Source: a virus. From it: a stretch of DNA of 28,314 nucleotides. Under the pieces are notes generated by a model, which worked only from the letters and a program-made list of their open reading frames with translations, made no database searches and had not been told where the DNA came from. Where the stretch lies: the IMG/VR virus record IMGVR_UViG_3300040811_000564, positions 1 to 28,314 of that record, one strand, 5' to 3'. This document shows, piece by piece, positions 2 to 20,063 of this stretch. Position 1 is the stretch's first letter. Every line of letters starts with the position of its first letter. The position numbers were made by a program, and so were the translations under genes.

Positions 2-73
2 GAAGTTGAAGCACAGGTTGAAAAAAATATAGATGGTAGTATAAGTATAGACAAGATTATAAAACCAAAATAA
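2..73 (+). CDS. C-terminal fragment of an unknown protein
   Basis: An open frame enters from the left edge and ends at TAA 71-73. It encodes 23 residues, roughly EVEAQVEKNIDGSISIDKI followed by a basic IKPK end. The stop overlaps the ATG of the next gene (TAATG), the same coupling used throughout this window, which supports it as a real gene end. The fragment is too short to assign a family. Confidence 0.6.
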   Translation, partial: EVEAQVEKNIDGSISIDKIIKPK

Positions 74-1185: not shown

Positions 1186-1661
1186 ACTTAAGTCGTAATT
1201 TTACTTTACAAGAATTAATTAAATCAGATACAGCTATTAGATTAAATATTGATAACAATCCTAATGGTGATCAAATTGATAAATTAAAACAACTATGTGA
1301 AAATGTACTTCAGCCAGTACGAGATCAATTCGGCAGAGTTAAGGTGACTAGCGGATTTAGGAGTCCACAACTTTGTAAAGCAATAGGTAGTTCAGAAAAC
1401 TCACAGCACGCCAAAGCTGAGGCCGCAGACTTCGAGGTAATTGGCGTAGACAACGCTGAACTAGCAGATTGGATACATAAATATTTAGAGACAGATCAAT
1501 TAATTTTGGAGTTCTATACTCCTGGTGAGCCAAACAGCGGATGGATTCACGCAAGTTGGATACCATACCAGCCCAGAAGACAATTCTTACACGCTTATAG
1601 AGAAGATAAGAGGGTTAAATATAAACCTATTATTGGTAAAGCAGTAGATCTTTTAAAATGA
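1182..1661 (+). CDS. Peptidase M15-family endolysin (L,D/D-Ala-D-Ala type carboxypeptidase)
   Basis: This 159-residue protein has the zinc-peptidase M15 layout. SGFRSPQLCKAIGSSENSQH carries H76, followed by D83 in AEAADFEV (the HxxxxxxD zinc pair). The third ligand H123 lies in SGWIHASW, and E110 before it is a candidate catalytic acid. The FTLQELIKSD start is typical of these phage lysins. Known members cleave peptide crosslinks of peptidoglycan, so a role in host lysis is expected. No signal peptide or membrane segment is seen, so export would need a holin; the holin-like gene is about 26 kb away at 27913. The ATG overlaps the halogenase-like gene's TGA, and its own stop overlaps the next ATG. 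Its position between two modification genes is unusual. Confidence 0.88.
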   Translation: MNLSRNFTLQELIKSDTAIRLNIDNNPNGDQIDKLKQLCENVLQPVRDQFGRVKVTSGFRSPQLCKAIGSSENSQHAKAEAADFEVIGVDNAELADWIHKYLETDQLILEFYTPGEPNSGWIHASWIPYQPRRQFLHAYREDKRVKYKPIIGKAVDLLK

Positions 1662-2164
1662 AACCAATAGTTGTCAAAGATAACTTTTTTGAAAACCCAG
1701 AACAAGTTATTGATATAGCCAAATCTGTTGAATGGCTTAAGCCTAATGAATCCCATAATTGGTGCGGTTTAAGAAGTTCAGATTTATCTAAGATCGATAC
1801 TAATTTAAATTGGTATATCGTAAGTAATTTTTTATATTTGTATTACAACAAAAGTGATATTAAAGTTGACTACACTCATGTTTGTTTTCATAAAATAAAT
1901 AAAGAAGATTGGTTAAATAGAAAAGAATATGCTCAAATACATCAAGATGGCACTGAGTTAGCTGGAGTAATTTACTTAGATAAAGAGCACAATTTTAACA
2001 ATGGTACTTCGATATATAACAATGAGGATTTAAGTATAAAAGTAGGATCTAAGTTTAACAGACTTGTAGCATATGATGGTAACTTTAGGCATGGTATATC
2101 AGACTTGGAAAATGAAGAAAGATTAAGTATAGTAATATTTTTAAATAATATAAAAATAAGATAG
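1658..2164 (+). CDS. 2OG-Fe(II) oxygenase (first of nine in the window)
   Basis: This 168-residue protein has a double-stranded beta-helix dioxygenase pattern. IHQDGTELAGVIYLD carries H95-x-D97, then NGTSIY, NRLVAYDGNFRHG with H145, and ERLSIVIFL with R155. H145 and R155 are ten residues apart, the classic spacing of the distal iron His and the 2-oxoglutarate-binding Arg. All three iron ligands and the Arg are present, so it is probably catalytic. The substrate is unknown; family members hydroxylate proline, lysine or small molecules. The start ATG overlaps the endolysin stop. It stands about 7.4 kb from the main oxygenase cluster, next to the short halogenase-like gene, so both enzyme classes also occur together here. 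Confidence 0.82.
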   Translation: MKPIVVKDNFFENPEQVIDIAKSVEWLKPNESHNWCGLRSSDLSKIDTNLNWYIVSNFLYLYYNKSDIKVDYTHVCFHKINKEDWLNRKEYAQIHQDGTELAGVIYLDKEHNFNNGTSIYNNEDLSIKVGSKFNRLVAYDGNFRHGISDLENEERLSIVIFLNNIKIR

Positions 2165-5192: not shown

Positions 5193-7136
5193 ATGGCAAC
5201 TACTTGGGGTACAAATACCTGGGGATCTAACTCATGGGAAAGTGATTTAAATATAATCACCCCAAGTAGTAATGTCATAACTGCATCATCAGGAACATTA
5301 GAAGCCTATCAAATAAACGGTTGGGGCGGTCAATTTTGGGGAGTACAAAGTTGGGGTAACCTAACTGATGCTTTCGCAACTGTAACAGGTCAAGAACTTA
5401 CATCATCATTAGGAACAGAAACCGTAGACGGTGAAATCAACTCTGGTTGGGGTGGTGAAGCTTGGGGAGAAAACGGTTGGGGTATCTTTGGAGACGTATT
5501 AATTTCTGGAGAGGAATTAAATTTAACAGTAGCTTCAGTTACTGTAGACGCTCAAATTCAAATTGGTTGGGGTGGTTTATCTTGGGGCGATGGTGAATGG
5601 GGAGATTTAGCAAACCCAGATCTTCAAGTTTCAGGAATAGCTTTAACATCTAACACAGAAGATGTATCTATTATTGCAGATGCAAATGTAGGTGCAACAG
5701 GAAATGAAATAACAACAGATACAGATGGAGCTGTTGCAGGAACTTCAGCAGCACCTATTGCAACTGGTATAGAATTATCATCTGACACGGACGGAGTATT
5801 TGCAGGGGAACTTGTAACAGTAGAACTATCATCACCTTCAAACGACCCTTGGGGTAATGAAGTTTGGGGTAATGGTCAGTGGGGTGCTGGAGATGGTACA
5901 TCAATTTTAGGAGACGCTGTTGTTGATTTACAAGGTAATGCAAATGTTATCCCTACAGGAGCAGAAGCTACAGGTCAAACAGGAGATTTAGGTCAAGCTT
6001 CTATTTACAATGTAACTAATGGATCTGAAAATTCAGTTGAGTTTACTGCATATAACCAAGCACAATTATCTACAGCTCAAGCTAAATTTGGAACAGCATC
6101 TTTATTATTAGATGGTACAAATGATTATGTAGAATCTAACTCAAATGTTGATTTAAGCTCTGGTGATTTTACAGTTGATGTTTGGATAAGACCAAGTAGT
6201 GTTTCAGGTTACAAAGGTATTTGGCAATCAGGAACAAGTACAACAGAACAATCTTATTTATTAGGTAACACAGTTTATTGGAGTGTAAATCCATCAACAA
6301 TTATAAGTAGTTCAGTTACTGTTAATGCAAATGAATGGACTATGTTGTCTTATGAAAGACAAGGCACCACCCACAGGATTTATAAAAATGGAACTTTAGA
6401 AGATACAGCTTCCACGGGTAATAAACAGGATAATGGTCCATTTAGTATTGGTGAAAATGGCTTTGGAGATTTCAATGGTTACATTGATGAATTTAGATTA
6501 TCAGATATTGCAAGATACGGAGGTTCAAGTTTCACTGAACCTACAGGAGCGTTTGTACCAGATTCAAATACAACATTCTTGTTACACATGGATGGGGCAA
6601 ATGGATCTACAAATATAGTAGACGATTCTCCAGGAGTAACTATTGCAAGATTCGATATTGGAGCAGCGTTTGGTGGAGAAGTTGTAGAAGTACAAGTTAG
6701 AACAGCTTCAGCACAACCTTGGGGTAACGAAGCTTGGGGTAATGGAGAATGGGGACAATCTGTTGGTACAGATATTGCAATAGGAGCAGATGCAGTACTA
6801 ACACCTTCAATAGATGTTCCTGTTACAGGAGAACAATTAAACTGGACTATTGGAACAGAAACTATTAAAGCAGATGCTAACGTTTCTGTTACAGGTCAAG
6901 AGATAGAATCTTTATTAGGAGATGAAAACGCTTTCACAGACGTGACTGTTGAGTTAATTTCTCGTGAAGAAAACACTGTATCTATAGGTAATTTTGTAGC
7001 TGGAATAAGTCAATTAATTGTACCTACAGGCTTGGAAGCTACTACAACTAGTGGTACAATGGGTGTAAACGCGTGGGCAGTTGTTGAAACTAGTTCTAAT
7101 ACAACTTGGACAGTTGTTGACAAAGCAGCGGCTTAG
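5193..7136 (+). CDS. WG-repeat tail/adhesin protein with an inserted LamG-like domain
   Basis: This 647-residue protein is preceded by AGGA (5183-5186); ATG 5193 is the start in this frame. It has an N-terminal WGTNTWGSNSW and five WGxxxWGxxxWG motifs at residues about 44-55, 86-97, 126-137, 220-231 and 510-521. These are separated by beta repeats such as VTGQELTSSLGTETVDGEI. Between the fourth and fifth motifs, residues about 285-470 form a concanavalin/laminin-G-like module: FGTASLLLDGTNDYVE, FTVDVWIRPSS, HRIYKNGTLED and GYIDEFRLSDIARY. LamG modules usually bind glycans or proteins, so this is a strong receptor-binding candidate. Fibre or tail-surface location is inferred from the repeats and neighbours. 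No enzymatic motif was seen. Confidence 0.76.
   Translation: MATTWGTNTWGSNSWESDLNIITPSSNVITASSGTLEAYQINGWGGQFWGVQSWGNLTDAFATVTGQELTSSLGTETVDGEINSGWGGEAWGENGWGIFGDVLISGEELNLTVASVTVDAQIQIGWGGLSWGDGEWGDLANPDLQVSGIALTSNTEDVSIIADANVGATGNEITTDTDGAVAGTSAAPIATGIELSSDTDGVFAGELVTVELSSPSNDPWGNEVWGNGQWGAGDGTSILGDAVVDLQGNANVIPTGAEATGQTGDLGQASIYNVTNGSENSVEFTAYNQAQLSTAQAKFGTASLLLDGTNDYVESNSNVDLSSGDFTVDVWIRPSSVSGYKGIWQSGTSTTEQSYLLGNTVYWSVNPSTIISSSVTVNANEWTMLSYERQGTTHRIYKNGTLEDTASTGNKQDNGPFSIGENGFGDFNGYIDEFRLSDIARYGGSSFTEPTGAFVPDSNTTFLLHMDGANGSTNIVDDSPGVTIARFDIGAAFGGEVVEVQVRTASAQPWGNEAWGNGEWGQSVGTDIAIGADAVLTPSIDVPVTGEQLNWTIGTETIKADANVSVTGQEIESLLGDENAFTDVTVELISREENTVSIGNFVAGISQLIVPTGLEATTTSGTMGVNAWAVVETSSNTTWTVVDKAAA
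5322..6755 (+). repeat. Five WGxxxWGxxxWG coding repeats, split by a LamG-like insert
   Basis: Within the gene at 5193, the triple-WG motif recurs five times. The segments before the fourth and fifth copies match closely: FAGELVTVELSSPSNDPWG and FGGEVVEVQVRTASAQPWG. The spacing between copies is about 40 residues for the first three, then about 94, then about 290, where the LamG-like domain is inserted. This indicates duplication followed by domain acquisition. Confidence 0.75.
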
Positions 7137-8226: not shown

Positions 8227-8667
8227 GTGGCTCATAAACTGTTCGCAATTTTAGATGAAACAAATTTTGTAAGTGATTTGCAAGTCGGTTCTGATGAACT
8301 TAGTTCAGAACAGGCGATGGCTGATTTCTTAGGAATTAATGTTTCTAAAGTAAAAGAGTATAGTCAGGATGGTACTTTTTTAAGCAGAGGTGTTGCTGCT
8401 ATTGGAAAAGAATATAGACCGACTCAGAACGATTTTATAGTAGAACAGCCTTATCCAAGTTGGATTTGGCATGAAGCGGACAAGAAATGGAGAGCACCAG
8501 TTACATCACCTTCAGCGTATGATGAAACTTATAATTTTTGGTGGGAAGAAGATTCACAAAAATGGAGAGGATATCCAAACAATGGAGCTCCACTTTATGA
8601 TCCAGCAGAGGATCCTAGAGTAGATTACTATTGGAATCCTGAAACATCACAATGGGAGGCAGTATAA
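8227..8667 (+). CDS. Trp-rich tail-associated protein (GTG start)
   Basis: This 146-residue protein starts with GTG at 8227, eight nt after a strong AGGAGG (8213-8218); there is no better ATG in frame. After an N-terminal part (FAILDETNFVSDLQVGSDEL), the second half has repeated aromatic W segments: QPYPSWIWHEADKKWRAPVT, then YNFWWEEDSQKWRGYP, then VDYYWNPETSQWEAV. I recognise this W-rich pattern from small proteins next to marine phage tail fibres. The Trp spacing suggests a beta-hairpin repeat. Function is unknown; a fibre chaperone or attachment role is possible. Confidence 0.6.
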   Translation: MAHKLFAILDETNFVSDLQVGSDELSSEQAMADFLGINVSKVKEYSQDGTFLSRGVAAIGKEYRPTQNDFIVEQPYPSWIWHEADKKWRAPVTSPSAYDETYNFWWEEDSQKWRGYPNNGAPLYDPAEDPRVDYYWNPETSQWEAV

Positions 8668-8668
8668 A

Positions 8669-9511
8669 ATGGCTAGACAATATTATAACAATGGTGGATT
8701 AATAGGACCTGATAATGATCCTTCAAATACTCCAGAATCAATTTCAACCTTCACAGGTGGTGGAACTTTTACACCCTCTGGAGCAACTACAGCAGAAGTC
8801 GTAATCGTCGGTGGCGGCGGTGGTGGGGGCTCAAACCGTGGTGGAGCGGGCGGAGCGGGTGGTGTATTATATGCATCATCTTACACTTTACCTGGATCAC
8901 CTGTTTCAGTTTCTATCGGAGGCGGTGGAACTTATGCATGGACAGGTACAAATGGTGGATCTTCAAGTTTTGACGGCCATACGGCACAAGGTGGCGGTGG
9001 CGGAGGAGCACACGGAGGTAATTATGCGGCTAAACCTGGAGGATCTGGCGGTGGAGCTGGACACGCTATGGGTGGTATGGCAGCAGGATCAGGAACACAA
9101 TCTCCATCAGGAGATTTTACAGGATATGGAAATCCAGGCGGTGACGCTGGAGACCCAGCAGCGGGCGGAGGCGGAGCGGGACAATCTGCTCGTGGACGAA
9201 CTGCAGGGGGACAAGGTATTCCATTAACAGTTAACACACCTACAGCATCACCAACTACTTACTACTTCGGTGGTGGTGGCGGTGGCCCAAGAACTTCAGG
9301 TGGACAGGGTGGCGGACGTCACGGTCAACCAGGAGGAGATAACCAAGGTGGCGGTGGCGGATCACACGGTACAGGTACAGGTGGTACTAGTCCTACAGCA
9401 CAAGCTGGTTATGTAGCTGTTAAAGAACCTGCATTTTTTGCAGGGGCACCTGGTGTTTGGAGACTTCAAGAAGTTTACGAACTTGTAAAAGACGGAAACT
9501 GGTCATCTTAA
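8669..9511 (+). CDS. Glycine-rich tail fibre adhesin
   Basis: This 280-residue protein has residues about 48-240 dominated by Gly in runs (GGGGGGG, GGGAGHAMGGMAAGSG, GGGGAGQ, GGQGGGRHGQPGG). Gly-rich repeats of this kind occur in phage adhesins such as the gp38 type of T-even phages, where polyglycine-II helices hold receptor-binding loops. The N-terminus (STFTGGGTFTPSGATTAEVV) resembles the entry strand of such domains. The C-terminus has GVWRLQEVYELVKDGNWSS, a motif I recognise at the ends of marine phage fibre proteins. Inferred role: host recognition at the fibre tip. It immediately precedes the oxygenase run. Confidence 0.68.
   Translation: MARQYYNNGGLIGPDNDPSNTPESISTFTGGGTFTPSGATTAEVVIVGGGGGGGSNRGGAGGAGGVLYASSYTLPGSPVSVSIGGGGTYAWTGTNGGSSSFDGHTAQGGGGGGAHGGNYAAKPGGSGGGAGHAMGGMAAGSGTQSPSGDFTGYGNPGGDAGDPAAGGGGAGQSARGRTAGGQGIPLTVNTPTASPTTYYFGGGGGGPRTSGGQGGGRHGQPGGDNQGGGGGSHGTGTGGTSPTAQAGYVAVKEPAFFAGAPGVWRLQEVYELVKDGNWSS
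8810..9388 (+). repeat. G-rich low-complexity coding tract
   Basis: This tract of the glycine-rich adhesin is made of repeated GGN and GCN codons (for example ggtggcggcggtggtggggg). It is strikingly G-rich against the AT-rich window. The tract could recombine or slip, giving fibre variation. Confidence 0.6.
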
Positions 9512-9548: not shown

Positions 9549-10220
9549 ATGAAGTTAATGAAAGGTCCTACTATACCTCAACCTAAAATATTAGTAGTAG
9601 ACGATTGGTATTCTAAAGAAGAAGAGGAAAGAGTTTGGAAAGAACTTGAATTCTATACTCAACCTAATAAATTTGATAGAGCCGAGAATGGTAATGTAGC
9701 TTTAGATGAAGACAATAAAGTATTAGGAGAACATTTTAGAGTTCATTTAGATCAGTTATATACACCAAAAGCAAGGGATTTATTAAATATATCTGATATT
9801 TTAAACTACCATTCAAAACTTCAAACACCTCAGTTTCATGAAGCCATAAAAAAAGCTAATCCAACTTACTATAGAATGTTTAGAGAAACAAATATAACTT
9901 ATTCTTTAATATCTTATTATGATGCAAATGATTATTATAAACCTCATCATGATATATTTATGTGGACTGTGCTTATTTGGTTTTACAAACAACCTAAAGC
10001 TTATACAGGTGGTGATTTAATTTTTCCAGAATATAATAATTTTAGAGTTGAATCTTTGCATAATAGAATGATAGCTTTTCCTAGTTATTATTTACACGGT
10101 GTAGAAACAATTAATTTGCCTGAAGATAAAACAAACAAAGGACTAGGAAGATATACAATAACTCATTTTTTACACACTCATGCAGGAGGAAAGTATTGGG
10201 AAAATGAACTTATTAAATAA
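9549..10220 (+). CDS. 2OG-Fe(II) oxygenase (cluster gene 1)
   Basis: This 223-residue protein has an iron site at KPHHDIF with H133-x-D135, a GGDLIFP turn near residue 154, MIAFPSYYLHGV with H183, and an Arg R201 in LGRYTITHFL. These fit the prolyl-4-hydroxylase-like branch of 2OG-Fe(II) dioxygenases, using 2-oxoglutarate and O2. The substrate is unknown. Its start is unusual: ATG 9549 has no Shine-Dalgarno, and a -10-like box ends six nt before it, so it may be leaderless. M4 at 9558 is an alternative start. It is the first gene of an overlapping chain that runs to 15549. Confidence 0.82.
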   Translation: MKLMKGPTIPQPKILVVDDWYSKEEEERVWKELEFYTQPNKFDRAENGNVALDEDNKVLGEHFRVHLDQLYTPKARDLLNISDILNYHSKLQTPQFHEAIKKANPTYYRMFRETNITYSLISYYDANDYYKPHHDIFMWTVLIWFYKQPKAYTGGDLIFPEYNNFRVESLHNRMIAFPSYYLHGVETINLPEDKTNKGLGRYTITHFLHTHAGGKYWENELIK

Positions 10221-10812
10221 ATTTTGGTATTTTGAAACAGGAGTGCCTTTACATTTTTGTGAAGAGATAATTCTTTCTGCTCAAGATAAAGGTGTTGTAG
10301 ACGGTGTAACTGACGATATCAAAAGAGAAGACATTGTAAGACTATCTAAGCAGAAAAAAAATACAAGAAATAGTAAGGTATGTTTTTTAAATAATAAGTG
10401 GATTATAGATCAATTAGAACCTTTTTTTTGGGATGCTAACAAACAAGCAGGTTGGGATTTTAGCATTTCACATTATGAAACCTGTCAGTTTACTTATTAC
10501 GACGGGCAAGAAAAACATTTTTATGATTGGCATTTAGATGCAGGACAAGAACCATATAAAGAAGGCTACTGTAAAGGCACTATACGAAAACTATCAATGG
10601 TTGTCCTTCTTAATAAACCAAATGATTTTGAAGGTGGTCAATTAGAATTTGATTATAGAAATAAAATTAATCCAAAAATTGATAGAGCACCTTTAACAAA
10701 GCAAGGTTCATGTGTTGTATTTCCGTCTTTTTTATGGCATAGAGTAAAACCAGTAACTAAGGGATTTCGTTACTCTTTAGTTGTTTGGGCTACAGGAGAA
10801 AAGTACAAATGA
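10204..10812 (+). CDS. 2OG-Fe(II) oxygenase, PKHD/prolyl-hydroxylase-like (cluster gene 2)
   Basis: ATG 10204 is chosen because it overlaps the upstream gene's end and matches the usual N-terminus; an in-frame ATG at 10180 would add eight residues. The 202-residue product has the full dioxygenase set: FYDWHLDA with H110-x-D112, GGQLEFD near 145, VVFPSFLWHRV with H179, and R189 ten residues on in GFRYSLVVW. It is the most canonical member of the run, close to the PKHD-type hydroxylases. AGGAGG at 10184-10189 is 14 nt upstream of the chosen ATG, rather far, so translational coupling may matter. The substrate is unknown. Confidence 0.86.
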   Translation: MNLLNKFWYFETGVPLHFCEEIILSAQDKGVVDGVTDDIKREDIVRLSKQKKNTRNSKVCFLNNKWIIDQLEPFFWDANKQAGWDFSISHYETCQFTYYDGQEKHFYDWHLDAGQEPYKEGYCKGTIRKLSMVVLLNKPNDFEGGQLEFDYRNKINPKIDRAPLTKQGSCVVFPSFLWHRVKPVTKGFRYSLVVWATGEKYK

Positions 10813-11399
10813 AAAAAGATTATATAAAAATTAAAAAAGCTTTGTCAAAAGATATCTGTGACTTTTTATGCAACTATTCAATGATTAAAGCACAGGCTTT
10901 AGCAGAACTAAAAAGAAATGATTTTATATCTATCTATGATACTAGATGGGGTTTTTTTGGAGATGATCAAGTTCCTGATAAAAATACATATTGTTTATAC
11001 GGGGACGCTGCTTTTGATAGTTTACTTATAAAATTACAACCACTTATAGAAAAAGAATTAAAAAAAGAACTAATACCTATGTATAGTTTTATTAGAATAT
11101 ACAGAAAAGGGAATGATTTAAAAAGACATACAGATAGAAAGGCTTGTAAGTATAGCATTACATTAAATCTTGGTGGAGATGATTGGCCAATATTTATGGC
11201 TGGAAAAAAATGTGAGATGAATCAAGGCGACTTAGTAATTTACGATGGTTGTAAAACAGAACATTGGAGAGAACCTTTTGAAGGCAATATATGTATTCAA
11301 TGTTTTCTTCATTATAATGAAAAAGATGAGAACTCAGATAAAAATCTATTTGATTCTAGGGTTGCTCTAGGTACTTGGTCGACATGCACAAGGGAGTAA
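10809..11399 (+). CDS. 2OG-Fe(II) oxygenase-like protein with 'EHWREPF' active-site variant (cluster gene 3)
   Basis: ATG 10809 overlaps the upstream TGA (ATGA); an in-frame ATG at 10785 is less likely. The product has 196 residues. LKRHTDRKACKYSITLNLGG carries H107-x-D109, and GDLVIYDGCKTEHWREPF carries H152. There is no Arg ten residues after H152; R154 lies beside it instead, a pattern I recall from a family of marine phage dioxygenases ending in QCFLHY. 2-Oxoglutarate may therefore be bound differently. The ~20 residues after FLHYNEKDEN look variable. The substrate is unknown. Confidence 0.77.
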   Translation: MKKDYIKIKKALSKDICDFLCNYSMIKAQALAELKRNDFISIYDTRWGFFGDDQVPDKNTYCLYGDAAFDSLLIKLQPLIEKELKKELIPMYSFIRIYRKGNDLKRHTDRKACKYSITLNLGGDDWPIFMAGKKCEMNQGDLVIYDGCKTEHWREPFEGNICIQCFLHYNEKDENSDKNLFDSRVALGTWSTCTRE

Positions 11400-11926
11400 G
11401 CTTTCAAGTTTTTGACGATCTAGTTCCTTTTGTCAAACAACAATATATCTATGATTTTTGTATAAACTCTAGCTATGCATTAAAAGGTTGGAACGATAGG
11501 TTAGATTTACATATTACAAAACACGATCTACATTCTAGGTGGAACCTAGATGATTTGATTAGATCTGGTTTATACGAACATGTATTAGAGGCATTGGATA
11601 AATCTAATACAGGATTTACAAGTGAACACTTTGAACACACTACAGTTAATATTGTGAGAAAAGATGATTATTATTACTCTCACACACATGGTAAAGATTG
11701 TTTAGTTGTTTTATATTATGCAAATTTAGAATGGCATCAAGAATGGGCAGGGGAAACTATATTTTTTGATAAACAAAATAAAGAAGCGATTGCTGTGAAT
11801 AGTTTTAAGCCAGGAAGAATTATTGTATTTGATGGTAATGCACCTCATTCAATACGACCACAATCAATAGTCGCTCCTGATTATAGGTTTACTATAGGAA
11901 CTTTTTTTAGAAAATGTACGAAGTAA
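11384..11926 (+). CDS. 2OG-Fe(II) oxygenase-like protein with HxH site (cluster gene 4)
   Basis: ATG 11384 is preferred to an in-frame TTG at 11375; it overlaps the previous gene's end. The product has 180 residues. VLYYANLEWHQEWAGETIFF is the typical strand with a W and a GGET-like turn. FKPGRIIVFDGNAPHSIRPQ holds the distal H155, and YRFTIGTFF holds R168. Before the first strand, YYYSHTHGKD shows H100-T-H102 where HxD would be expected. I recall phage relatives with the same HxH, so this may be a family feature rather than damage, but metal chemistry could differ. The substrate is unknown. Confidence 0.76.
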   Translation: MHKGVSFQVFDDLVPFVKQQYIYDFCINSSYALKGWNDRLDLHITKHDLHSRWNLDDLIRSGLYEHVLEALDKSNTGFTSEHFEHTTVNIVRKDDYYYSHTHGKDCLVVLYYANLEWHQEWAGETIFFDKQNKEAIAVNSFKPGRIIVFDGNAPHSIRPQSIVAPDYRFTIGTFFRKCTK

Positions 11927-12408
11927 TAGATAATTTTTTATCTGAAGAAGACTTAATAAAAATAGAAGAGGTAATCTTAAGGAGTGTAGATTTTCCTTGG
12001 TACTATCAGCCTAGTATATCGTTTGATGAAAAAAAATCTAAGTCTGTATTATTTTATTTAATACATATGTTTTATTCAAACCACAGACCCTCTAGTAACT
12101 ATTTTCCTCTGGTTATTCCTTTACTTAACAAACTACAACCTAAAGCTTTAATTAGAGTCAAAGGTAATTTTTACCCTAATCAAGGAGTAAAAGATTTAGA
12201 TGAGATGCATCAAGACTATCCTTTTAAACATAAAGGAGCTATATTTTCTTTAAATACATGTAATGGAGGAACTTTACTTAAAGATAAAACTTTGATAAGC
12301 AGTGTAAGAAATAGAATGCTTTTGTTCGACCCAAGCGAATTACATGATTCCATTGGTTGCACAGATAATAATAAAGCTAGGATAAATATAAATATTAATT
12401 ATTTTTAA
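11914..12408 (+). CDS. 2OG-Fe(II) oxygenase-like protein (cluster gene 5)
   Basis: This 164-residue protein begins MYEVIDNFLSEEDLIKIEEV and has FPWYYQPSI near residue 27. The iron site is DEMHQDYPFKHKGAIFSLNT with H99-x-D101, then a short NGGTLL turn. LLFDPSELHDSIG carries H144, and KARINININ carries R156, twelve residues on. Its N-terminus and FPWY segment match the gene at 14995 closely, so these two are paralogues flanking the rest of the cluster. The start overlaps the previous gene by 13 nt. Confidence 0.77.
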   Translation: MYEVIDNFLSEEDLIKIEEVILRSVDFPWYYQPSISFDEKKSKSVLFYLIHMFYSNHRPSSNYFPLVIPLLNKLQPKALIRVKGNFYPNQGVKDLDEMHQDYPFKHKGAIFSLNTCNGGTLLKDKTLISSVRNRMLLFDPSELHDSIGCTDNNKARINININYF

Positions 12409-13002
12409 ATGAAATTTGAAAAATCAAGTATAAGTTCAACAGTTCTAAAAGGTAGATTTGAAGAACACAAGGAAGTTAAAAAGAAACTTTTAGATTTACA
12501 AAAAGATGCTCCAGGTGAACCTTGTGTTTTATTAGACGATTATCATACAGATAATATCTCTTTTACAGATTGGTTCCATGCAGGGGATTTAGAAAATAGA
12601 CCTTGGGTAAAATATTTCATGCCTAGATTTACACCTTATTGGGGAGAGATGGCAAAAGAACTAGGTTTTGAAAATCTACAAATTAATAAATTATGGTTTC
12701 AAAGATATAATCAAGAAAGCTTTCATAACTGGCATACACATGCCTCTAATTATACAGGGGTATATTATCTAGAACTTCCAGAAGGAAGTGGTCAAACAGA
12801 ATTTATAGATCCAACTGATTTAAGAACTACATGGTTTAATGATGCAAAAGAAGGTGACATTATATTTTTTCCATGTCATTTAATACATAGGGGATCGATT
12901 CAACAAATTAATAAACAAAAAACAATTATTTCTTGGAACTTAGACTTTCAAACTATTAGAAGGGATGTGTTAAAAGTAGGTGCAACTTCATCAACAAAGT
13001 AA
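12409..13002 (+). CDS. 2OG-Fe(II) oxygenase-like protein with HTH site (cluster gene 6)
   Basis: The ATG directly abuts the previous stop. This 197-residue protein has FHNWHTHASNYTGVYYLELP with H109-T-H111, a pattern I associate with phage 2OG oxygenases of the 'HxHP..SGVYYL' type. It then has GSGQTEFIDP, and DIIFFPCHLIHRGS with H160. In NKQKTIISWNLDF, K171 sits where Arg is usual. As at 11384, Asp of HxD is replaced by His. Whether iron is bound by this set is untested. The C-terminal SST overlaps the next GTG start by 23 nt. Confidence 0.75.
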   Translation: MKFEKSSISSTVLKGRFEEHKEVKKKLLDLQKDAPGEPCVLLDDYHTDNISFTDWFHAGDLENRPWVKYFMPRFTPYWGEMAKELGFENLQINKLWFQRYNQESFHNWHTHASNYTGVYYLELPEGSGQTEFIDPTDLRTTWFNDAKEGDIIFFPCHLIHRGSIQQINKQKTIISWNLDFQTIRRDVLKVGATSSTK

Positions 13003-13468
13003 TTTTCTTACAAAAGAAGAATGTAAGTTTTTTATTGATTTTCACAATAATAACTTTTTTAAACTTCCTGAACTTTTTAAAGAAATTCATAGAGATACGG
13101 AAGTTATTCATTACTCTAAATTAATTAGAGAAGATATTTTTAACTACGTTTATTGCAAGATTGCTTATTTTATACAAAGTATTAATAAAAACTATTATCC
13201 AAATTATGTACAAATAGTTAAATGGCCTAATCAAGCTAGTCAGCCAGAACATAAAGATTTTGACTACCATCCTTTTACATCTATTATTTATTTGAACGAT
13301 GACTATGACGGTGGTGAAACGTTTGTAGAAGATAAGGTTATTAAAAAAGAAACTGGAAAAATTGTAGGATTTACAGGAGCTAACTTAGCTCACGGTGTAA
13401 ATAAAATTAATAATGGGACTAGATTTACTATCCCTGTTTGGTATAAAGATATCTATGGTAGTAAATAA
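12980..13468 (+). CDS. 2OG-Fe(II) oxygenase, prolyl-4-hydroxylase-like (cluster gene 7, GTG start)
   Basis: This 162-residue protein is a compact, fully canonical member. QPEHKDFDYHPFTSIIYLND has H91-x-D93, then YDGGETFVED. GKIVGFTGANLAHGVNKINN has H138, and GTRFTIPVWY has R148, ten residues on. The frame has no ATG near the domain start; GTG 12980 gives MQLHQQSNFLTKEECKFF, which resembles the usual 'xFLTxEEC' start of this family. Its stop region overlaps the halogenase ATG by 14 nt. Confidence 0.82.
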   Translation: MQLHQQSNFLTKEECKFFIDFHNNNFFKLPELFKEIHRDTEVIHYSKLIREDIFNYVYCKIAYFIQSINKNYYPNYVQIVKWPNQASQPEHKDFDYHPFTSIIYLNDDYDGGETFVEDKVIKKETGKIVGFTGANLAHGVNKINNGTRFTIPVWYKDIYGSK

Positions 13469-15008
13469 AATTATAATTGTTGGTGGTGGTAGTGCAGGGT
13501 GGATGACTGCAGCAACTTTAATAAGACTTTTTCCTAATAAAAAAATTACATTAATTGAAAGTGCTAATACACCTGTTGTAGGTGTAGGTGAAAGTACCTT
13601 AGGTTTTATAAATCATTGGTTACAACTTCTTAAAATTAAAGATGAAGATTTTATGAAAGAGTGTGATGCTACTTATAAATTAAGTATAAAGTTTAATAAT
13701 TTTTATTACGAAAGATCTGGAAGTTTTCATTATCCTTTTGGAGAACCCTTTGAGGACGATTTACCAGGAGGTAAAAATTCTTGGTATTTTAAAAAATTTT
13801 TATCTAAGTTACCTCTTCCGTGGACAGATTATGCTAACTTCTTATACCCAGCTATGGCTTTAGTTAAACATAATCGTTTTGGTGAAAACATAAACGGTGA
13901 TTTAAGTAATTTTGATTTAGTTCAAAATAGTGCCTATCATTTTGATGCAATTAAATTCGGTCAAGTTTTAAAAAATAAAATATGTATACCAGAAGGTGTT
14001 GAACATATTATTGATGATATTAAAACATGCCAAAGAAACGAAAGAGGTTATGTTACTGGTTTAAATGATAAGTATGCAGCTGACCTTTACATAGACTGCA
14101 CAGGTTTTAAATCACTGTTAATTGGCGAAATGATGGAGGTACCTTTCATAAGTTATAACGATTTATTACCAAATGATTCAGCACTTGCAGGGCAGATACC
14201 TTACAAAGATAAAGAAAAAGAATTAGTATCTTATACAGAATGTAGTGCAATACAAAATGGTTGGGTTTGGAGAATACCTAGCTGGAATAAAATAGGAACA
14301 GGGTATGTTTACAGTTCTAAGTATGTGGATGATAAACAAGCTGAAATAGAAATGCATACTCACATGTTTGATACATGGGGTTTAGATACGAGAGATACTT
14401 TAGAACTTAAGAAAATTAATATGAGAGTTGGAAGGCATAAAGATATTTTTTATAAAAATGTTTGTGCTATTGGCTTATCTGCTGGTTTCATAGAACCTTT
14501 AGAAAGTAACGGTCTATTTACAGTACATCAATTTTTAATAAATTTAGCAAGAACCTTACACCATGAAAGTATAAATCAATTTGAAAGAGATGCTTTTAAC
14601 CATAGATGTAATTTAGAGTTTGATAGATTTGCTGAGTTTGTTGCTATGCATTATTACTTAACTAATAGAAAAGATACTAAGTATTGGAGAGATTTAAAAG
14701 ATAAACAAATTATAGATTTGAAGAAACAACCTAGTATGGATATTAACAACGGTCTTAATTTAAAAGTATTTAATAACTATGAATCAAATGGTGGTATGCA
14801 TTGTGTAGGCACAGGTATGAGACAACTTCCTATTGATCCTACAGAAATATGTTTACAAAATAACATTACAGACTTTGAGGCATTTTCAAAACAACATATA
14901 GAACCATACATTAAAAGAAGAGACGATTTGGTGAAGTCTTGGGATCTTATAGCTCAAACAAAACCTAAGCTAATAGACGTATTAAAGAAAATACATGAAG
15001 GTAATTGA
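13455..15008 (+). CDS. Flavin-dependent tryptophan-halogenase-family enzyme
   Basis: ATG 13455 (517 residues) is preferred over an in-frame ATG at 13413, because the FAD loop GGGSAGW then starts at residue 10 as in the family. All signatures are intact: GVGEST (43-48), the catalytic Lys K75 in ATYKLSIKF (PrnA K79), GWVWRIP with W270-x-W272, and GFIEPLESNG with E350-S351 (PrnA E346-S347). Length fits the family (about 500-540). Members use FADH2 and O2 to halogenate electron-rich rings through hypohalous acid; a partner flavin reductase is needed and none is seen here. Related enzymes from marine phages, including a cyanophage iodinase, are described in the literature. It sits inside the oxygenase run, so an aromatic or tyrosine/tryptophan residue in a protein could be its substrate. 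Confidence 0.9.
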   Translation: MVVNKIIIVGGGSAGWMTAATLIRLFPNKKITLIESANTPVVGVGESTLGFINHWLQLLKIKDEDFMKECDATYKLSIKFNNFYYERSGSFHYPFGEPFEDDLPGGKNSWYFKKFLSKLPLPWTDYANFLYPAMALVKHNRFGENINGDLSNFDLVQNSAYHFDAIKFGQVLKNKICIPEGVEHIIDDIKTCQRNERGYVTGLNDKYAADLYIDCTGFKSLLIGEMMEVPFISYNDLLPNDSALAGQIPYKDKEKELVSYTECSAIQNGWVWRIPSWNKIGTGYVYSSKYVDDKQAEIEMHTHMFDTWGLDTRDTLELKKINMRVGRHKDIFYKNVCAIGLSAGFIEPLESNGLFTVHQFLINLARTLHHESINQFERDAFNHRCNLEFDRFAEFVAMHYYLTNRKDTKYWRDLKDKQIIDLKKQPSMDINNGLNLKVFNNYESNGGMHCVGTGMRQLPIDPTEICLQNNITDFEAFSKQHIEPYIKRRDDLVKSWDLIAQTKPKLIDVLKKIHEGN

Positions 15009-15549
15009 TAATTATCTTGATAAAGATACTTTTAAAAAAATAACTGATTTAATACTTTCAGATAATTTTCCTTGGTTTTATAACGAAAACATAACCCAAG
15101 ATAAATTGAATGAGCATGTATTTAGTTATGGGTTTACTCATATATTTCATGATGGGGAAATGCGGAATACCTACTATGCTGAGTTAATGACTCCAGTTAT
15201 TAATAAGATAAAACAAACCGCAAGAGGCTCAGATATTCTAAGATCAAGATTAGATATGACTATGAGTGTGTCTGGCAAATATTTACATAACCCACATATA
15301 GATTACCCCTATGATAATATAACTACAATATTTTATTTAAATGACTCAGATGGGGATACTGTTTTATTTGATGAATATGGTAAAGATGTTAATACTATAT
15401 ACAGTCAAAGTACTTTAAAAGAGGTACATAGAGTTACCCCCAAAGCTAATAGATTGTTAATATATGAGGGTAATCGATTGCATACAGGAAATTCCCCTAC
15501 AAAGAATAAGAGACGTGTACTATTAAATTCGAATTTCACTTATTTATAA
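14995..15549 (+). CDS. 2OG-Fe(II) oxygenase-like protein (cluster gene 8)
   Basis: This 184-residue protein overlaps the halogenase stop by 14 nt. It has MKVIDNYLDKDTFKKITDLI and FPWFYNENI, closely echoing the gene at 11914. YLHNPHIDYPYDNITTIFYL carries H101-x-D103, followed by GDTVLFDEY. LLIYEGNRLHTGNS carries H163, and KRRVLLNSNF carries R173/R174 about ten residues on. All expected ligands are present. It ends the modification run; about 30 nt further on is a fresh promoter candidate. The substrate is unknown. Confidence 0.8.
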   Translation: MKVIDNYLDKDTFKKITDLILSDNFPWFYNENITQDKLNEHVFSYGFTHIFHDGEMRNTYYAELMTPVINKIKQTARGSDILRSRLDMTMSVSGKYLHNPHIDYPYDNITTIFYLNDSDGDTVLFDEYGKDVNTIYSQSTLKEVHRVTPKANRLLIYEGNRLHTGNSPTKNKRRVLLNSNFTYL

Positions 15550-15571
15550 GTATATTTAAATAGTGTATAAT
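15543..15571 (+). promoter_or_regulatory. Candidate promoter giving a leaderless mRNA at 15578
   Basis: TATAAT (15566-15571) is a perfect -10 and begins exactly 12 nt before ATG 15578, as at 9549. A weak -35, TTTATA (15543-15548), lies 17 nt upstream. AGTG directly precedes the -10, giving TTTAAATAGTGTATAAT, close to the sites before 9549 and 20112. No Shine-Dalgarno is present. Confidence 0.55.
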
Positions 15572-15577
15572 ACTGTT

Positions 15578-17500
15578 ATGTCACTAAGAAAAGTGCAATT
15601 TGCACCAGGATTTAATAAACAAGCTACAGATTCACAGGCCGAAGGTCAGTGGGTAGATGGCGATAATGTTCGTTTTCGATATGGTTCACCTGAAAAAATA
15701 GGTGGATGGGAACAGGTACTTGATAGTACCCTTGTCGGTGCAACAAGAGCAATACATACCTGGTCAGATTTAGGTGGTAGAAAATACGCCGCTCTTGGTA
15801 CAAATAAAATTTTATATATTTATAATGGAGATGACTTTTATGATGTTACTCCAATCGATACTAATATAGCCGTGAGCGGAGGTGACATTACCACGGTTAA
15901 CGGATCACGGACAGTAACTATTACAACTCCATCAGCTCATAATTTAGAGATAGGAGACATTACTACTTTTGAAAATGCAGGTTCATTTACTGGTGGTCAA
16001 ACAGATTATGTGGCAGCAGACTTTGATGATGTTTTATATGAAGTACAGTCTATACCAACAATTACTACTTTTACAATTCAAATGGCTACTGCAGAAACTG
16101 GAACAGGAGCAACGAACGATGGTACTTTAGATACACAACCTTATTACAAAATAGGTCCAATACTACAAGCATTTGGTTATGGTTGGGGTACTGGAACATG
16201 GTCGGCTTCTACTTGGGGAACACCAAGACCTTCTTCGAATGCAGTTTTAGATCCTGCATCATGGTCATTAGATAATTATGGAGAGCTATTAATAGCAACT
16301 ATTAAAAATGGTGCTACATTTCAATGGGATCCCAATGGCGGTGCTGGTATAAATGCTAGAGCAACTTTAGTAACTAATGCTCCAACAAAAGCAGTGATGA
16401 CACTAGTGTCTGATAGAGATAGACATTTAATATTTTTAGGTACAGAAACAACAATTGGTTCTCCAGGAACACAGGATAAAATGTTTATTAGGTTTTCTGA
16501 TCAAGAAAACATTAATGATTACACACCAACGTCTACTAACACAGCAGGTACATTTAGAATAGATTCTGGAACTAAAATCATCGGTGCTGCAAAAGGTAAA
16601 GATTATATTTTAATTTTAACAGATACTTCAGCATATTTAATGCAATTCATAGGAGCACCTTATACGTTTAGTATTAGACAAGTTGGTTCTAATTGTGGTT
16701 GTGTTGGACAACATTCTATTGTGTATGCTAACGGTGCAGTATTCTGGATGGGAGACTCAGGGGGTTTCTTTGTATTTGATGGTACAGTTAAATCAATGGG
16801 TTCTTTAGTAGAAGATTTTGTATTTACTACAACAGCAGATAATCTAGGTTTTAACTTTGCTTCAGGTTCTGAATTAACTTATGGAACACACAATAGTCTA
16901 TATCAAGAAATTACTTGGTTTTATCCAACAGCTAGTTCTAATTATGTTAATAGATGTGTTACGTATAACTATGGAGAAAGAGTATGGACTACAGGAACTT
17001 TAGCAAGAACAGCTTATTCAGATGCTCATGTATTTGATAGTCCAATGGCAACTAAATTTGATTTAACGGTTGCTCCAACAACACCAGTAGTACAAGGAGT
17101 ATCAAATGGTGCTTCTTATGTGTTTGATCAAGAAGTTGGTGTTAATGAAGTATTAGACAATGGTAACGTTGTAAATGCTATACCTGCATATATTGAATCA
17201 GGAGATTTTGATTTAGATGAAGGTGGAGATGGCGAATATTTTATGAAGATAAGAAGATTTATTCCTGACTTTAAAGACCTACAAGGTAATGCTAAGGTTA
17301 CAATATTACTAAGAAGATACCCTGCCGATACTCAAACAAGTTCTACGTTAGGACCCTTTACAGTTAACTCTTCTACTGATAAAGTAGACACAAGAGCTAG
17401 ATCAAGACTAGCTTCTGTAAAAATTGAAAATGATGCTATTAATGAAAGATGGCGTTATGGAGTATTTAGAGTAGATATACAACCAGATGGAAGAAGATAA
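15578..17500 (+). CDS. Large virion protein, P22 gp10-like (tail stabilisation) candidate
   Basis: ATG 15578 gives 640 residues. A GTG at 15563 would add five but would place the -10 box inside the gene. The N-terminus MSLRKVQFAPGFNKQATDSQ, then GDNVRFRYGSPEKIGGWEQV, is a signature I recognise from marine phage structural proteins. A WG motif (GWGTGTWSASTWG, about residues 205-220) recalls the repeats at 5193. The middle (LIFLGTETT, LILTDTSAYLMQFIGAPYTF, GCVGQHSIVYANGAVFWMGD) repeats short beta strands like a propeller, and the end is Arg-rich (RARSRLASVKIENDAINERW). This suggests a tail hub or closure protein of the gp10 type. The match is from memory and architecture, so the exact role is uncertain. 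Confidence 0.64.
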   Translation: MSLRKVQFAPGFNKQATDSQAEGQWVDGDNVRFRYGSPEKIGGWEQVLDSTLVGATRAIHTWSDLGGRKYAALGTNKILYIYNGDDFYDVTPIDTNIAVSGGDITTVNGSRTVTITTPSAHNLEIGDITTFENAGSFTGGQTDYVAADFDDVLYEVQSIPTITTFTIQMATAETGTGATNDGTLDTQPYYKIGPILQAFGYGWGTGTWSASTWGTPRPSSNAVLDPASWSLDNYGELLIATIKNGATFQWDPNGGAGINARATLVTNAPTKAVMTLVSDRDRHLIFLGTETTIGSPGTQDKMFIRFSDQENINDYTPTSTNTAGTFRIDSGTKIIGAAKGKDYILILTDTSAYLMQFIGAPYTFSIRQVGSNCGCVGQHSIVYANGAVFWMGDSGGFFVFDGTVKSMGSLVEDFVFTTTADNLGFNFASGSELTYGTHNSLYQEITWFYPTASSNYVNRCVTYNYGERVWTTGTLARTAYSDAHVFDSPMATKFDLTVAPTTPVVQGVSNGASYVFDQEVGVNEVLDNGNVVNAIPAYIESGDFDLDEGGDGEYFMKIRRFIPDFKDLQGNAKVTILLRRYPADTQTSSTLGPFTVNSSTDKVDTRARSRLASVKIENDAINERWRYGVFRVDIQPDGRR

Positions 17501-18361: not shown

Positions 18362-19285
18362 ATGCAATTACCGAAAGGTGGAACGGAGATACAAGAAGCG
18401 TATCTTCGCAAACACGTTAAAAAAGAATTATTAGATAAAATAAGTTTAACTACTTCTATTCCAGAAAAACAACCCTTAGTTATAGATAGGTCTAATGTAT
18501 TATGGGTTCATAATAGTTATGACCAAGCTAATTTAGTACCTTGGTTTAAAAATAAACTTAATCATGGGAAATATGATTGGTATGTATTTAATAGTCATTG
18601 GACATATGAAAAATATAGATACTTCTTTGATATTCCGACAGAACAATCTTTAGTTATTACAAATGGTTTTGATGACGACCTAGTTCTTAAAAAGAACTTT
18701 GAACCTCATCCAAAGATTAAAATGGTATACACCTCAACTCCTTGGAGAGGATTAGATGTTTTATTAGCAGCAATGGAAGCTGTACAAAAAAATCAACATG
18801 TTGAATTAGATGTTTACTCAAGTACACAAATATATGGCGATCATTTTAAACAACACAATGATGATGCATTTAAACATTTATATGAAAAAGCAGAGAAATT
18901 AACTAATGTAAATTACAAAGGATATATAGATCATTCTGAGTTAATGAAAAAATTACATACTTATGATGTTTATGTACATCCTTCTACATTTGAAGAAACT
19001 TTTTGCTTGGCAGCTATGGAATCTTTAGCAGCGGGTTTAATTGTAGTGACTACAGATTTAGGTGCTTTACCTGAAGTTTGTGCAGGGTTTCCAATTTATG
19101 TTCCCTACATGAAAGATAAAAAACAACTAGCTCAAAAATTTGCATATACAATAAATCAATTGCCTATGTTTGTTAATGCAGCTAACCCCGATGCATTGAA
19201 GTTTCAACAAGACTACTATAGAAACTTTTATCATTGGGATATTATAAAAGGATATTGGGAGAATTTTTTAAATGGCATTAAATAA
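18362..19285 (+). CDS. GT-B glycosyltransferase (GT4-like)
   Basis: This 307-residue protein has a C-terminal GT-B nucleotide-sugar-binding half: YTSTPWRGLDVLLAAMEAVQ near 123-142, YDVYVHPSTFEETFCLAAME near 201-220, then LAAGLIVVTTDLGALPE. E212 and E220 form the E-x7-E motif. It is short for a two-domain GT4 enzyme, and the N-terminal half (VLWVHNSYDQANLVPWF, YVFNSHWTYEKY) is abridged. The donor sugar and acceptor are unknown. It starts at ATG 18362, two nt after the previous stop, and is followed by an overlapping GT-A gene. In a phage this may glycosylate virion or host-surface structures. Confidence 0.82.
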   Translation: MQLPKGGTEIQEAYLRKHVKKELLDKISLTTSIPEKQPLVIDRSNVLWVHNSYDQANLVPWFKNKLNHGKYDWYVFNSHWTYEKYRYFFDIPTEQSLVITNGFDDDLVLKKNFEPHPKIKMVYTSTPWRGLDVLLAAMEAVQKNQHVELDVYSSTQIYGDHFKQHNDDAFKHLYEKAEKLTNVNYKGYIDHSELMKKLHTYDVYVHPSTFEETFCLAAMESLAAGLIVVTTDLGALPEVCAGFPIYVPYMKDKKQLAQKFAYTINQLPMFVNAANPDALKFQQDYYRNFYHWDIIKGYWENFLNGIK

Positions 19286-20063
19286 TATAAGAATATTTGT
19301 AGCAACACCTGTGCATTCAGACGTATCAATACACTATTTCAAAGCTTGTCTAGAATTTCAAAAAGAATGTTTTATTAGAAAGATACCTGTTCAATTTCAA
19401 GTAATGAAATCATCCTTAGTTACACAAGGTAGGAATTTATGTGTATCAGGTTTTTTAGATTCTGACTTTACACACATGTTATTTATAGATTCAGATATGA
19501 CTTTTAATTTTAAGATGATAGAAAGAATGCTTAACTATGATAAAGAAGTTACATTAATTCCGTATCCTGTAAAAACATTTGATAACGATAAAATAGTAAA
19601 TGCAATAAAAGCAGGGGTAGATATAAAACCACAAATGCTAGGTAATCAATATACTTTATCTGTAGAAGATCCTAAAAATGTAAAAGTAGAAGGTGGTTTT
19701 GTAGAGCTTAGTAGAGGTCCTACGGGTTGCATGTTAATTAGAAGAGATGTGTTTGATAAATTAAAAAAAGAATACCCAGAGTTTGAGATCAAACAGAAAA
19801 CATTAATTGATGGTAAACTAGTTGATAGAACTAACTTATATAATTACTTTGATACTTATTGGAATAAAAACGACAAAACCTATACAGGGGAAGATTTTTT
19901 CTTTTGTAAATTATGTAAGCATGCAGGTATTAAAATGTACGGTTTAATTGATGAATACATTGAACACTATGGCGAGTTTGCGTATACAGGAAGATTAATT
20001 GACGAATTTACGATAAATAAAGCTTTAGGAAAAGTATCACCCAAAGTATTGAATTCTGACTAA
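19272..20063 (+). CDS. GT-A-type glycosyltransferase
   Basis: This 263-residue protein opens with RIFVATPVHSDVSIHYFKAC, a GT-A first strand. It then has SLVTQGRNLCVSGFLDSDFT and HMLFIDSDMTFNF, where D73-S74-D75 is the DxD metal/nucleotide-sugar motif. GPTGCMLIRRDVFDKL, TYTGEDFFFCKLCKHAG and YIEHYG follow, the expected acceptor-side acidic GED and a late His. It overlaps the GT-B gene by 14 nt and was probably co-expressed with it. The acceptor is unknown. About 48 nt separate it from the internal-virion block. Confidence 0.84.
   Translation: MALNNIRIFVATPVHSDVSIHYFKACLEFQKECFIRKIPVQFQVMKSSLVTQGRNLCVSGFLDSDFTHMLFIDSDMTFNFKMIERMLNYDKEVTLIPYPVKTFDNDKIVNAIKAGVDIKPQMLGNQYTLSVEDPKNVKVEGGFVELSRGPTGCMLIRRDVFDKLKKEYPEFEIKQKTLIDGKLVDRTNLYNYFDTYWNKNDKTYTGEDFFFCKLCKHAGIKMYGLIDEYIEHYGEFAYTGRLIDEFTINKALGKVSPKVLNSD

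Follow-up and report, generated by a model that had tools for sequence, protein, structure and literature searches.

Many genes for 2-oxoglutarate (2OG)-dependent Fe(II) oxygenases and flavin-dependent halogenases, long arrays included, have already been published from marine phages (PMC3037559, PMC9964418, PMC9602691, PMC9599517), with 24 2OG genes reported in one of these studies (PMC9602691). The arrays most like the one described here belong to T4-like Synechococcus myoviruses. In S-CREM1 (ORF67-80), a halogenase gene and nine contiguous 2OG-type genes, of which eight are labelled 2OG and one JmjC, come after the gene for a collagen-like protein; this cassette was published as metabolic genes and not as a fibre-linked system (PMC9964418). 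Syn10 has a pair of halogenases along with an extended series of oxygenases downstream of the fibre genes, and syn9 has an equivalent. Here we describe an island of eight 2OG-type oxygenase genes and one halogenase gene at positions 9549 to 15549 of IMG/VR record IMGVR_UViG_3300040811_000564, a linear 28.3-kb fragment that was analysed over its whole length of 28,314 nucleotides and is referred to as the window. Its enzyme subtypes and gene order differ from those of S-CREM1 and Syn10/syn9. Given these two arrays, the density of the window's island is not unique, and a preliminary description that took it to be unprecedented does not stand on that point.

The HTVC023P-type pelagiphages represent the same virus group and gene families, and eight non-orthologous 2OG genes with a "ferrochelatase" gene beside them have been reported there (Wittmers 2022, PMC9599517). 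The passages of that report on these genes place them "frequently nearby, although not adjacent" and mention no halogenase, whereas the island of the window is contiguous and includes one. The iron/heme pairing of 2OG enzymes with "ferrochelatase" rests on that label (PMC9599517). A further parallel is the pelagimyophage host recognition cluster, a variable island of tail fibres and glycosyltransferases; it belongs to T4-like phages, and the sections of its description that deal with the cluster do not discuss oxygenases or a halogenase as part of it (Zaragoza-Solas 2020, PMC7029224).

Two enzymes provide biochemical reference points. The closest solved relative of the window's halogenase (HAL) is VirX1 of cyanophage Syn10, which has the same motif set, an open active site and room for bulky substrates, and which halogenates many aromatics with a preference for iodide (PMC8407142); HAL is about 43% identical to this Syn10 homologue, and VirX1 was assayed on small aromatics. 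The viral collagen prolyl hydroxylase (vCPH) of PBCV-1 lies close to the fold predicted for one window protein, P3, and the logic proposed is that a viral structural protein is first hydroxylated and then glycosylated. Identity between the two is near 14%, no collagen repeat substrate was recognised in the window, and the function of P3 is a prediction. Mimivirus L230 represents a second viral collagen hydroxylation system.

The oxygenase and halogenase genes of the window

Nine frames lie on the plus strand at 9549-15549, at the positions given in the preliminary description, overlapping or abutting, between a glycine-rich fibre gene on the left and a virion structural gene (STAB) on the right. 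The open reading frame (ORF) list agrees with this arrangement, which is as follows.

8669..9511, plus strand: glycine-rich fibre protein, left border of the island (PF21722, 2e-14)
9549..10220, plus strand: P1, 2OG-Fe(II) oxygenase (PF13640, 1.5e-7, above cutoff; H133, D135, H183, R201)
10204..10812, plus strand: P2, PiuC/YbiX-like 2OG-Fe(II) oxygenase (PF13640, 3.3e-15; phrog_61, 7e-32; H110, D112, H179, R189)
10809..11399, plus strand: P3, 2OG-type oxygenase by predicted fold (phrog_2954, 1.1e-43; H107, D109, H152, Gln164)
11384..11926, plus strand: P4, 2OG-FeII_Oxy_3 protein with HxH (PF13640, 2.2e-6, above cutoff; H100, H102, H155, R168)
11914..12408, plus strand: P5, 2OG-type oxygenase (phrog_274, 1.5e-42; H99, D101, H144, R156)
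12409..13002, plus strand: P6, 2OG-FeII_Oxy_5 protein with a three-histidine site (PF13759, 1.4e-8; phrog_81, 5e-31; H109, H111, H160)
12980..13468, plus strand: P7, 2OG-type oxygenase (phrog_2297, 2e-27; phrog_61, 2e-10; H91, D93, H138, R148)
13455..15008, plus strand: HAL, full-length flavin-dependent halogenase, VirX1-like (PF04820, Trp_halogenase, 3.9e-102; phrog_2928, 9e-138)
14995..15549, plus strand: P9, 2OG-Fe(II) oxygenase (PF13640, 7.8e-7, above cutoff; phrog_274, 2e-44; H101, D103, H163, R174)
15563..17500, plus strand: STAB, virion structural (stabilisation-type) gene, right border and anchor for comparisons (phrog_3287, 2e-95)

The count of eight dioxygenase-like genes was borne out by Pfam and PHROG profiles and by active-site residues, and for P3 by its predicted fold. 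Pfam models of the 2OG-FeII_Oxy_3/5 type passed their gathering cutoffs for P1, P2, P4, P6 and P9; P3, P5 and P7 fell below Pfam cutoffs and were matched by PHROG profiles at 1e-43, 1e-42 and 2e-27, respectively. The HxD/E...H triad and the distal Arg/Lys were kept across relatives in P1, P2, P5, P7 and P9, including the metal-site residues of P1 across 9 relatives and a comparison of P2 site residues in 120. On these profiles (for P5, via its paralogue P9) and residues, the five are assigned to the 2OG-Fe(II) oxygenase superfamily. Matches below cutoff were also recorded between P2 and an NCBIfam PKHD-type profile and between P4 and a FlmC-family profile (2.6e-13). P5 and P9 are detectable paralogues (BLASTP, 28.6% identity, E of 7e-19), and every other oxygenase pair gave E > 0.005; recent tandem duplication was thereby ruled out, in agreement with the divergence first noted.

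The expectation that each gene would keep its own ligand set held for metal-site residues within families, with nuances in P6, P4 and P3. In approximately 134 of 149 relatives of P6, HxH replaces HxD, and neither Arg nor Lys is conserved at the usual position; dependence of P6 on 2OG is therefore doubtful, and P6 may be a three-histidine enzyme within the 2OG-FeII_Oxy_5 family that does not use 2OG. P4 of the window phage also has HxH for HxD, with the Arg retained. For phrog_274, to which P5 and P9 belong, the label "DNA endonuclease V" was rejected on the basis of the 2OG triad and the 2OG Pfam match of P9, and a DenV-type endonuclease Pfam match was not found for either protein at E values up to 1. 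The same label is carried by two genes of HTVC008M (24214-24702 and 26549-27034) that have 2OG-oxygenase residues.

P3 is the least certain member of the island. It falls in phrog_2954, which is named "ferrochelatase" (phrog_3531 likewise appears misnamed), and 154 phage records match it, many of them so annotated. None of 29 P3-family members matched a ferrochelatase model of Pfam or NCBIfam, and PDB sequences searched with a P3 profile yielded no match. An AlphaFold2 model (pLDDT 93.4, pTM 0.89) was then compared with known structures: Foldseek returned bacterial prolyl hydroxylase (4j25, 4iw3), vCPH (5c5t) and PHD2, with E values down to 5e-8 for prolyl 4-hydroxylase (P4H), and VIA gave Z scores of about 15 for SnoN, P4H and PHD2. 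Protein hydroxylases, namely P4H-EF-Tu, viral collagen P4H and PHD2, are thus among its fold neighbours. The metal triad is invariant in the family (104/104 members), and 103 of the 104 have Gln where the 2OG-binding Arg/Lys is usual (Gln164 in P3), so that use of 2OG is unproven. On profiles, residues and predicted fold the ferrochelatase label was rejected. The model confidently predicts a double-stranded beta-helix of the prolyl-hydroxylase type; the name therefore looks wrong, and the family's label is most likely an error.

HAL is full length, as first described, and retains the GxGxxG, WxWxIP, EPLES and Lys motifs, the complete flavin-dependent halogenase set; by profile and motifs it is assigned as a flavin-dependent (tryptophan) halogenase. 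The VirX1 structure (6qgm) matched it at 5.9e-104. A flavin reductase partner was not recognised in the window. Among NCBIfam profiles, QhpG and LodB come nearest, both far below their cutoffs. QhpG and LodB are maturases that work on residues inside proteins, so that a protein substrate would not be without precedent, although the likeness does not count as evidence for it. HAL homologues also occur in a different phage context (L011, L017 and L018), with putative fibre flanks and no 2OG neighbours in L011.

Relative to L003, the nearest independent relative, ratios of nonsynonymous to synonymous substitution rates (dN/dS) were 0.066 for P6, 0.074 for P7, 0.078 for HAL and 0.103 for P9, with 0.067 for a structural neighbour; the remaining island genes could be compared only with distant relatives, at dS near saturation. 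P6, P7, HAL and P9 are under purifying selection. Conserved sites and low dN/dS indicate that the island genes are working and not decaying.

Position and company of the island in relatives

Shared structural genes and gene order place the virus among the HTVC023P-type (pelagiphage-like) podoviruses. STAB is 56% identical to its counterpart in Pelagibacter phage HTVC023P and 53% to that in HTVC027P, and the window shares with HTVC023P-type phages the order fibre genes, STAB, g17664 and the glycosyltransferase genes GT1 and GT2. The same identity and gene order suggest a SAR11-type host.

To compare loci, relatives were anchored on STAB homologues, giving 272 distinct loci, and further loci were anchored on the halogenase. 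On the fibre side, upstream of STAB, 923 kb of these 272 loci contained 408 oxygenases and 10 halogenases, compared to 41 oxygenases and no halogenase in 910 kb downstream. The island is kept in relatives, and neither of the outcomes that the preliminary description had named as a refutation was seen: the products are of the dioxygenase type, and the genes co-occur in relatives. Among the 41 downstream oxygenases, 33 lie between g17664 and the GT1/GT2 pair, 28 of these within 1.5 kb of GT1. Three loci (L006, L007 and L033) whose halogenases are approximately 63-65% identical to HAL retain much of the set (P1, P9-like, P2, P3, P5, P6 and HAL, with P7 in L006 and L007); gene content and order are shuffled in other relatives. 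In the 52 relatives for which 6.5 kb or more of sequence upstream of STAB was available, oxygenase counts ranged from 0 to 8, and the window is at the top of this range.

Across 55 islands we counted 224 oxygenases, 7 halogenases and 30 other non-fibre genes, so that 86% of non-fibre genes are oxygenases; this composition rules out a general cargo hotspot. Guests in STAB- or halogenase-anchored loci include carbamoyltransferases (L004, L009, L015, L309) and sulfotransferases (L009, L327), and an adenosine 5'-phosphosulfate kinase-like protein was found in L034. At L009 11538-13089, a weak radical S-adenosylmethionine match and an unidentified 251-amino-acid protein stand next to the halogenase island, which hints at additional chemistry on peptides or metabolites. 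Carbamoyl, sulfo and glycosyl transfer all act on hydroxyl groups, and the hydroxyls used by the guest transferases would come from the oxygenases. Because of the carbamoyl- and sulfotransferase guests and the oxygenases beside glycosyltransferases, the proposal of multi-step tailoring is supported, with a virion protein, a host glycan or a metabolite as its candidate target. A role in anti-phage defence was rejected, as the one PADLOC match was to a generic CRISPR-associated 2OG profile, which we read as superfamily similarity.

Changes of the island were next set against fibre type. A maximum-likelihood phylogeny of STAB showed three changes of the island, each accompanied by a change of fibre type. 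L170 and L177 have the island and Gly-rich fibres, whereas their close relatives L179 and L183 have neither and carry wholly different fibre genes. In L179, L183 and L076, fibre arrays of repeated paralogous cassettes, which start with MAYTTINKPSDYF and end with PATAR, lie upstream of the LamG genes and replace the entire Gly-fibre and oxygenase module. Every one of 24 loci that have the Gly-rich/W-rich fibre module carries oxygenases, as do 31 of 41 that lack it; Fisher p values were 0.01 at a 5-kb cut and 0.08 and 0.14 at longer cuts, for loci that are not phylogenetically independent. The association is therefore one-way, and the module-free loci with oxygenases weaken any strict link to this fibre. 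The Gly-rich/W-rich module recurs in unrelated backbones, the podovirus HTVC033P and the T4-like HTVC008M. Oxygenases also come immediately after the gp12 fibre in S-PM2 and, in S-RIM32, after the gene that occupies the corresponding position, and in S-TIM4 they lie near a fibre together with a carbamoyltransferase. Tandem clustering of 2OG genes was only modest in three large phage genomes.

The remaining features of the window that bear on these comparisons are as follows.

73..1185, plus strand: HAL2, short Trp-halogenase-like flavoprotein (PF04820, 1e-32)
1658..2164, plus strand: P10, DUF6445-type oxygenase, ninth in the window, near its left end (PF20043, 2e-6, above cutoff; H95, D97, H145, R155)
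5193..7136, plus strand: LamG-domain fibre protein (PF13385, 8e-18; baseplate/virion PHROGs)
8227..8667, plus strand: g8227, small Trp-rich protein of the fibre cluster (phrog_7759; model pLDDT 88)
18362..19285, plus strand: GT1, group-1 glycosyltransferase downstream of STAB, conserved (PF00534, 1e-17; synteny)
19272..20063, plus strand: GT2, second glycosyltransferase-like gene (weak PF03452; pairing with GT1 conserved)

HAL2 fails the WxWxIP signature, having WCFYIP instead, and a homologue sits within the fibre island of L057. HAL2, an M15 peptidase and P10 are grouped at 73-2164 ahead of the adaptor gene, and the slot beside M15 holds a halogenase in L268 and two oxygenases in L090; this region may be a second small island. 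The protein g8227 has repeated W-containing motifs and 29 distinct relatives, which occur in the fibre clusters of marine phages that are not related to each other; in 15 of 54 islands its gene is the one immediately before the first oxygenase. The N-terminal part of its model weakly resembles the Pam3 fibre chain 7ypx_a (VIA Z of 5.8; next the Mu fibre/chaperone, Z of 2.5), a likeness too weak to assign; Foldseek of the PDB gave no significant match, and matches in a viral structure library were all to unnamed proteins. It is possibly a fibre chaperone or tip protein.

Candidate substrates of the island enzymes

The reading we favour, with a rough probability of 0.45, is that the island is an oxidative and halogenating tailoring system for virion receptor-binding proteins. 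Enzymes made alongside the structural proteins would act in the cytoplasm on new fibre or receptor-binding proteins, the oxygenases hydroxylating side chains and the flavin halogenase halogenating aromatic residues. The new hydroxyls would be extended by the downstream glycosyltransferases and, in relatives, also by carbamoyl- and sulfotransferases, and the receptor-binding surface would be diversified or stabilised as a result. In favour of this reading are the confinement of the enzymes to the fibre side of STAB, the make-up of the islands, their co-change with fibre type, the oxygenases in every locus with the Gly-rich/W-rich module, the recurrence beside fibres in other phage types, the guests that act on hydroxyls, the downstream oxygenases ahead of GT1, the protein hydroxylases near P3 in fold, the likeness of HAL to QhpG and LodB, and the open active site of VirX1. 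Gene content, folds and profiles, active sites, selection in P6, P7, HAL and P9, position and neighbouring transferases are observed, while a virion protein as substrate, the reaction at each site and the benefit are inferred. More tentatively, a modular island in several marine phage lineages might hydroxylate, halogenate and then glycosylate, carbamoylate or sulfate the phage's own receptor-binding proteins, host range evolving through fibre chemistry as well as sequence.

Several observations weigh against virion tailoring. VirX1 was characterised on small molecules, and SnoN, a small-molecule enzyme, equals P4H as the top structural match of P3. The co-change with fibre type amounts to three independent events (sign test, p of 0.25), a number with which significance is unreachable. 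One clade has the island without Gly/W fibres, and many 2OG genes of large T4-like phages are dispersed away from fibres. In HTVC027P, HTVC008M and L009 some of the island lies on the opposite strand, and co-transcription with fibres is therefore not universal. Finally, the available portions of the S-CREM1 and S-SCSM1 virion proteome reports record no such modification and do not state whether it was sought.

The main rival, which we consider unlikely, is modification of the host surface: lipopolysaccharide or other surface glycans of the infected cell would be altered by the oxygenases, halogenase and glycosyltransferases so that superinfection is blocked or receptor display is changed, and proximity to fibres would reflect shared evolution of receptor choice. 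Co-change with fibre type fits this equally well, and most of the positional evidence is common to both readings. Glycosyltransferases are conserved beside STAB, and such a role is proposed in the part of the pelagimyophage study that treats the host recognition cluster with its fibres and glycosyltransferases (Zaragoza-Solas 2020, PMC7029224). However, neither nucleotide-sugar synthesis nor membrane O-antigen machinery was found among the ORFs of the 28-kb genome fragment, protein hydroxylases are among the closest folds of P3, and a glycan presents no obvious aromatic target for the halogenase.

Tailoring of a small molecule appears improbable. Here a host or phage-made metabolite, for example a Trp-derived antimicrobial, would be oxidised and halogenated, and the S-CREM1 authors have suggested chlorotryptophan/pyrrolnitrin (PMC9964418). 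Halogenases, carbamoyltransferases, sulfotransferases and 2OG enzymes all belong to classes well known for tailoring natural products, and VirX1 accepts many small aromatics (PMC8407142). Yet the island tracks fibre type and stays on the fibre side of STAB, which is unexpected of a metabolite pathway, and no nonribosomal peptide synthetase, polyketide synthase or maturase of ribosomally synthesized and post-translationally modified peptides was found among window ORFs of at least 80 amino acids, a search that did not extend to short precursor ORFs.

We give little credence to metabolic control, in which the oxygenases would mainly consume 2OG or sense iron or nitrogen and so reprogram host metabolism. 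Hypotheses of this kind have been published (Sullivan 2010, PMC3037559; Wittmers 2022 for the 2OG/"ferrochelatase" pairing, PMC9599517), and iron uptake rises during HTVC027P infection (PMC12753301). Burning 2OG, however, needs no eight diverged, non-redundant enzymes with separate conserved sites; the "ferrochelatase" partner is itself a predicted oxygenase, P6 lacks canonical 2OG-binding residues, and the fibre-side position would go unexplained.

Nucleic acid modification or repair, by AlkB/TET-like enzymes or the annotated "DNA endonuclease V," is highly improbable: the phrog_274 label and cyanophage annotations, the ability of 2OG enzymes to act on DNA and the DNA hypermodification genes known in HTVC023P-type phages (PMC9599517) speak for it, but phrog_274 members carry 2OG residues, and their Pfam matches are to 2OG families and not to any of the DenV type; the genes adjoin fibres, not replication genes. 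There is likewise only a very slight chance that a recombining fibre region gathered oxygenases with no shared function, as the differing gene content and order of relatives might suggest, given that one superfamily makes up the bulk of non-fibre island genes, purifying selection is strong where tested and active sites are conserved.

Meaning for marine phage genes

The gene families and the arrays are already known; the linkage to fibres and the correction of P3 are new. In the literature searched, we found no prior quantification of fibre-side confinement and no account of co-change with fibre type, of carbamoyl- or sulfotransferase guests in these podoviruses, or of reassignment of the "ferrochelatase" family. 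The correction removes a likely misannotation on which the iron/heme interpretation was based, and the islands are a potential source of halogenases which may act on proteins. If the fibre link is true, the marine phage "auxiliary metabolic genes" concerned, a large class still lacking an explanation, would be virion-maturation machinery.

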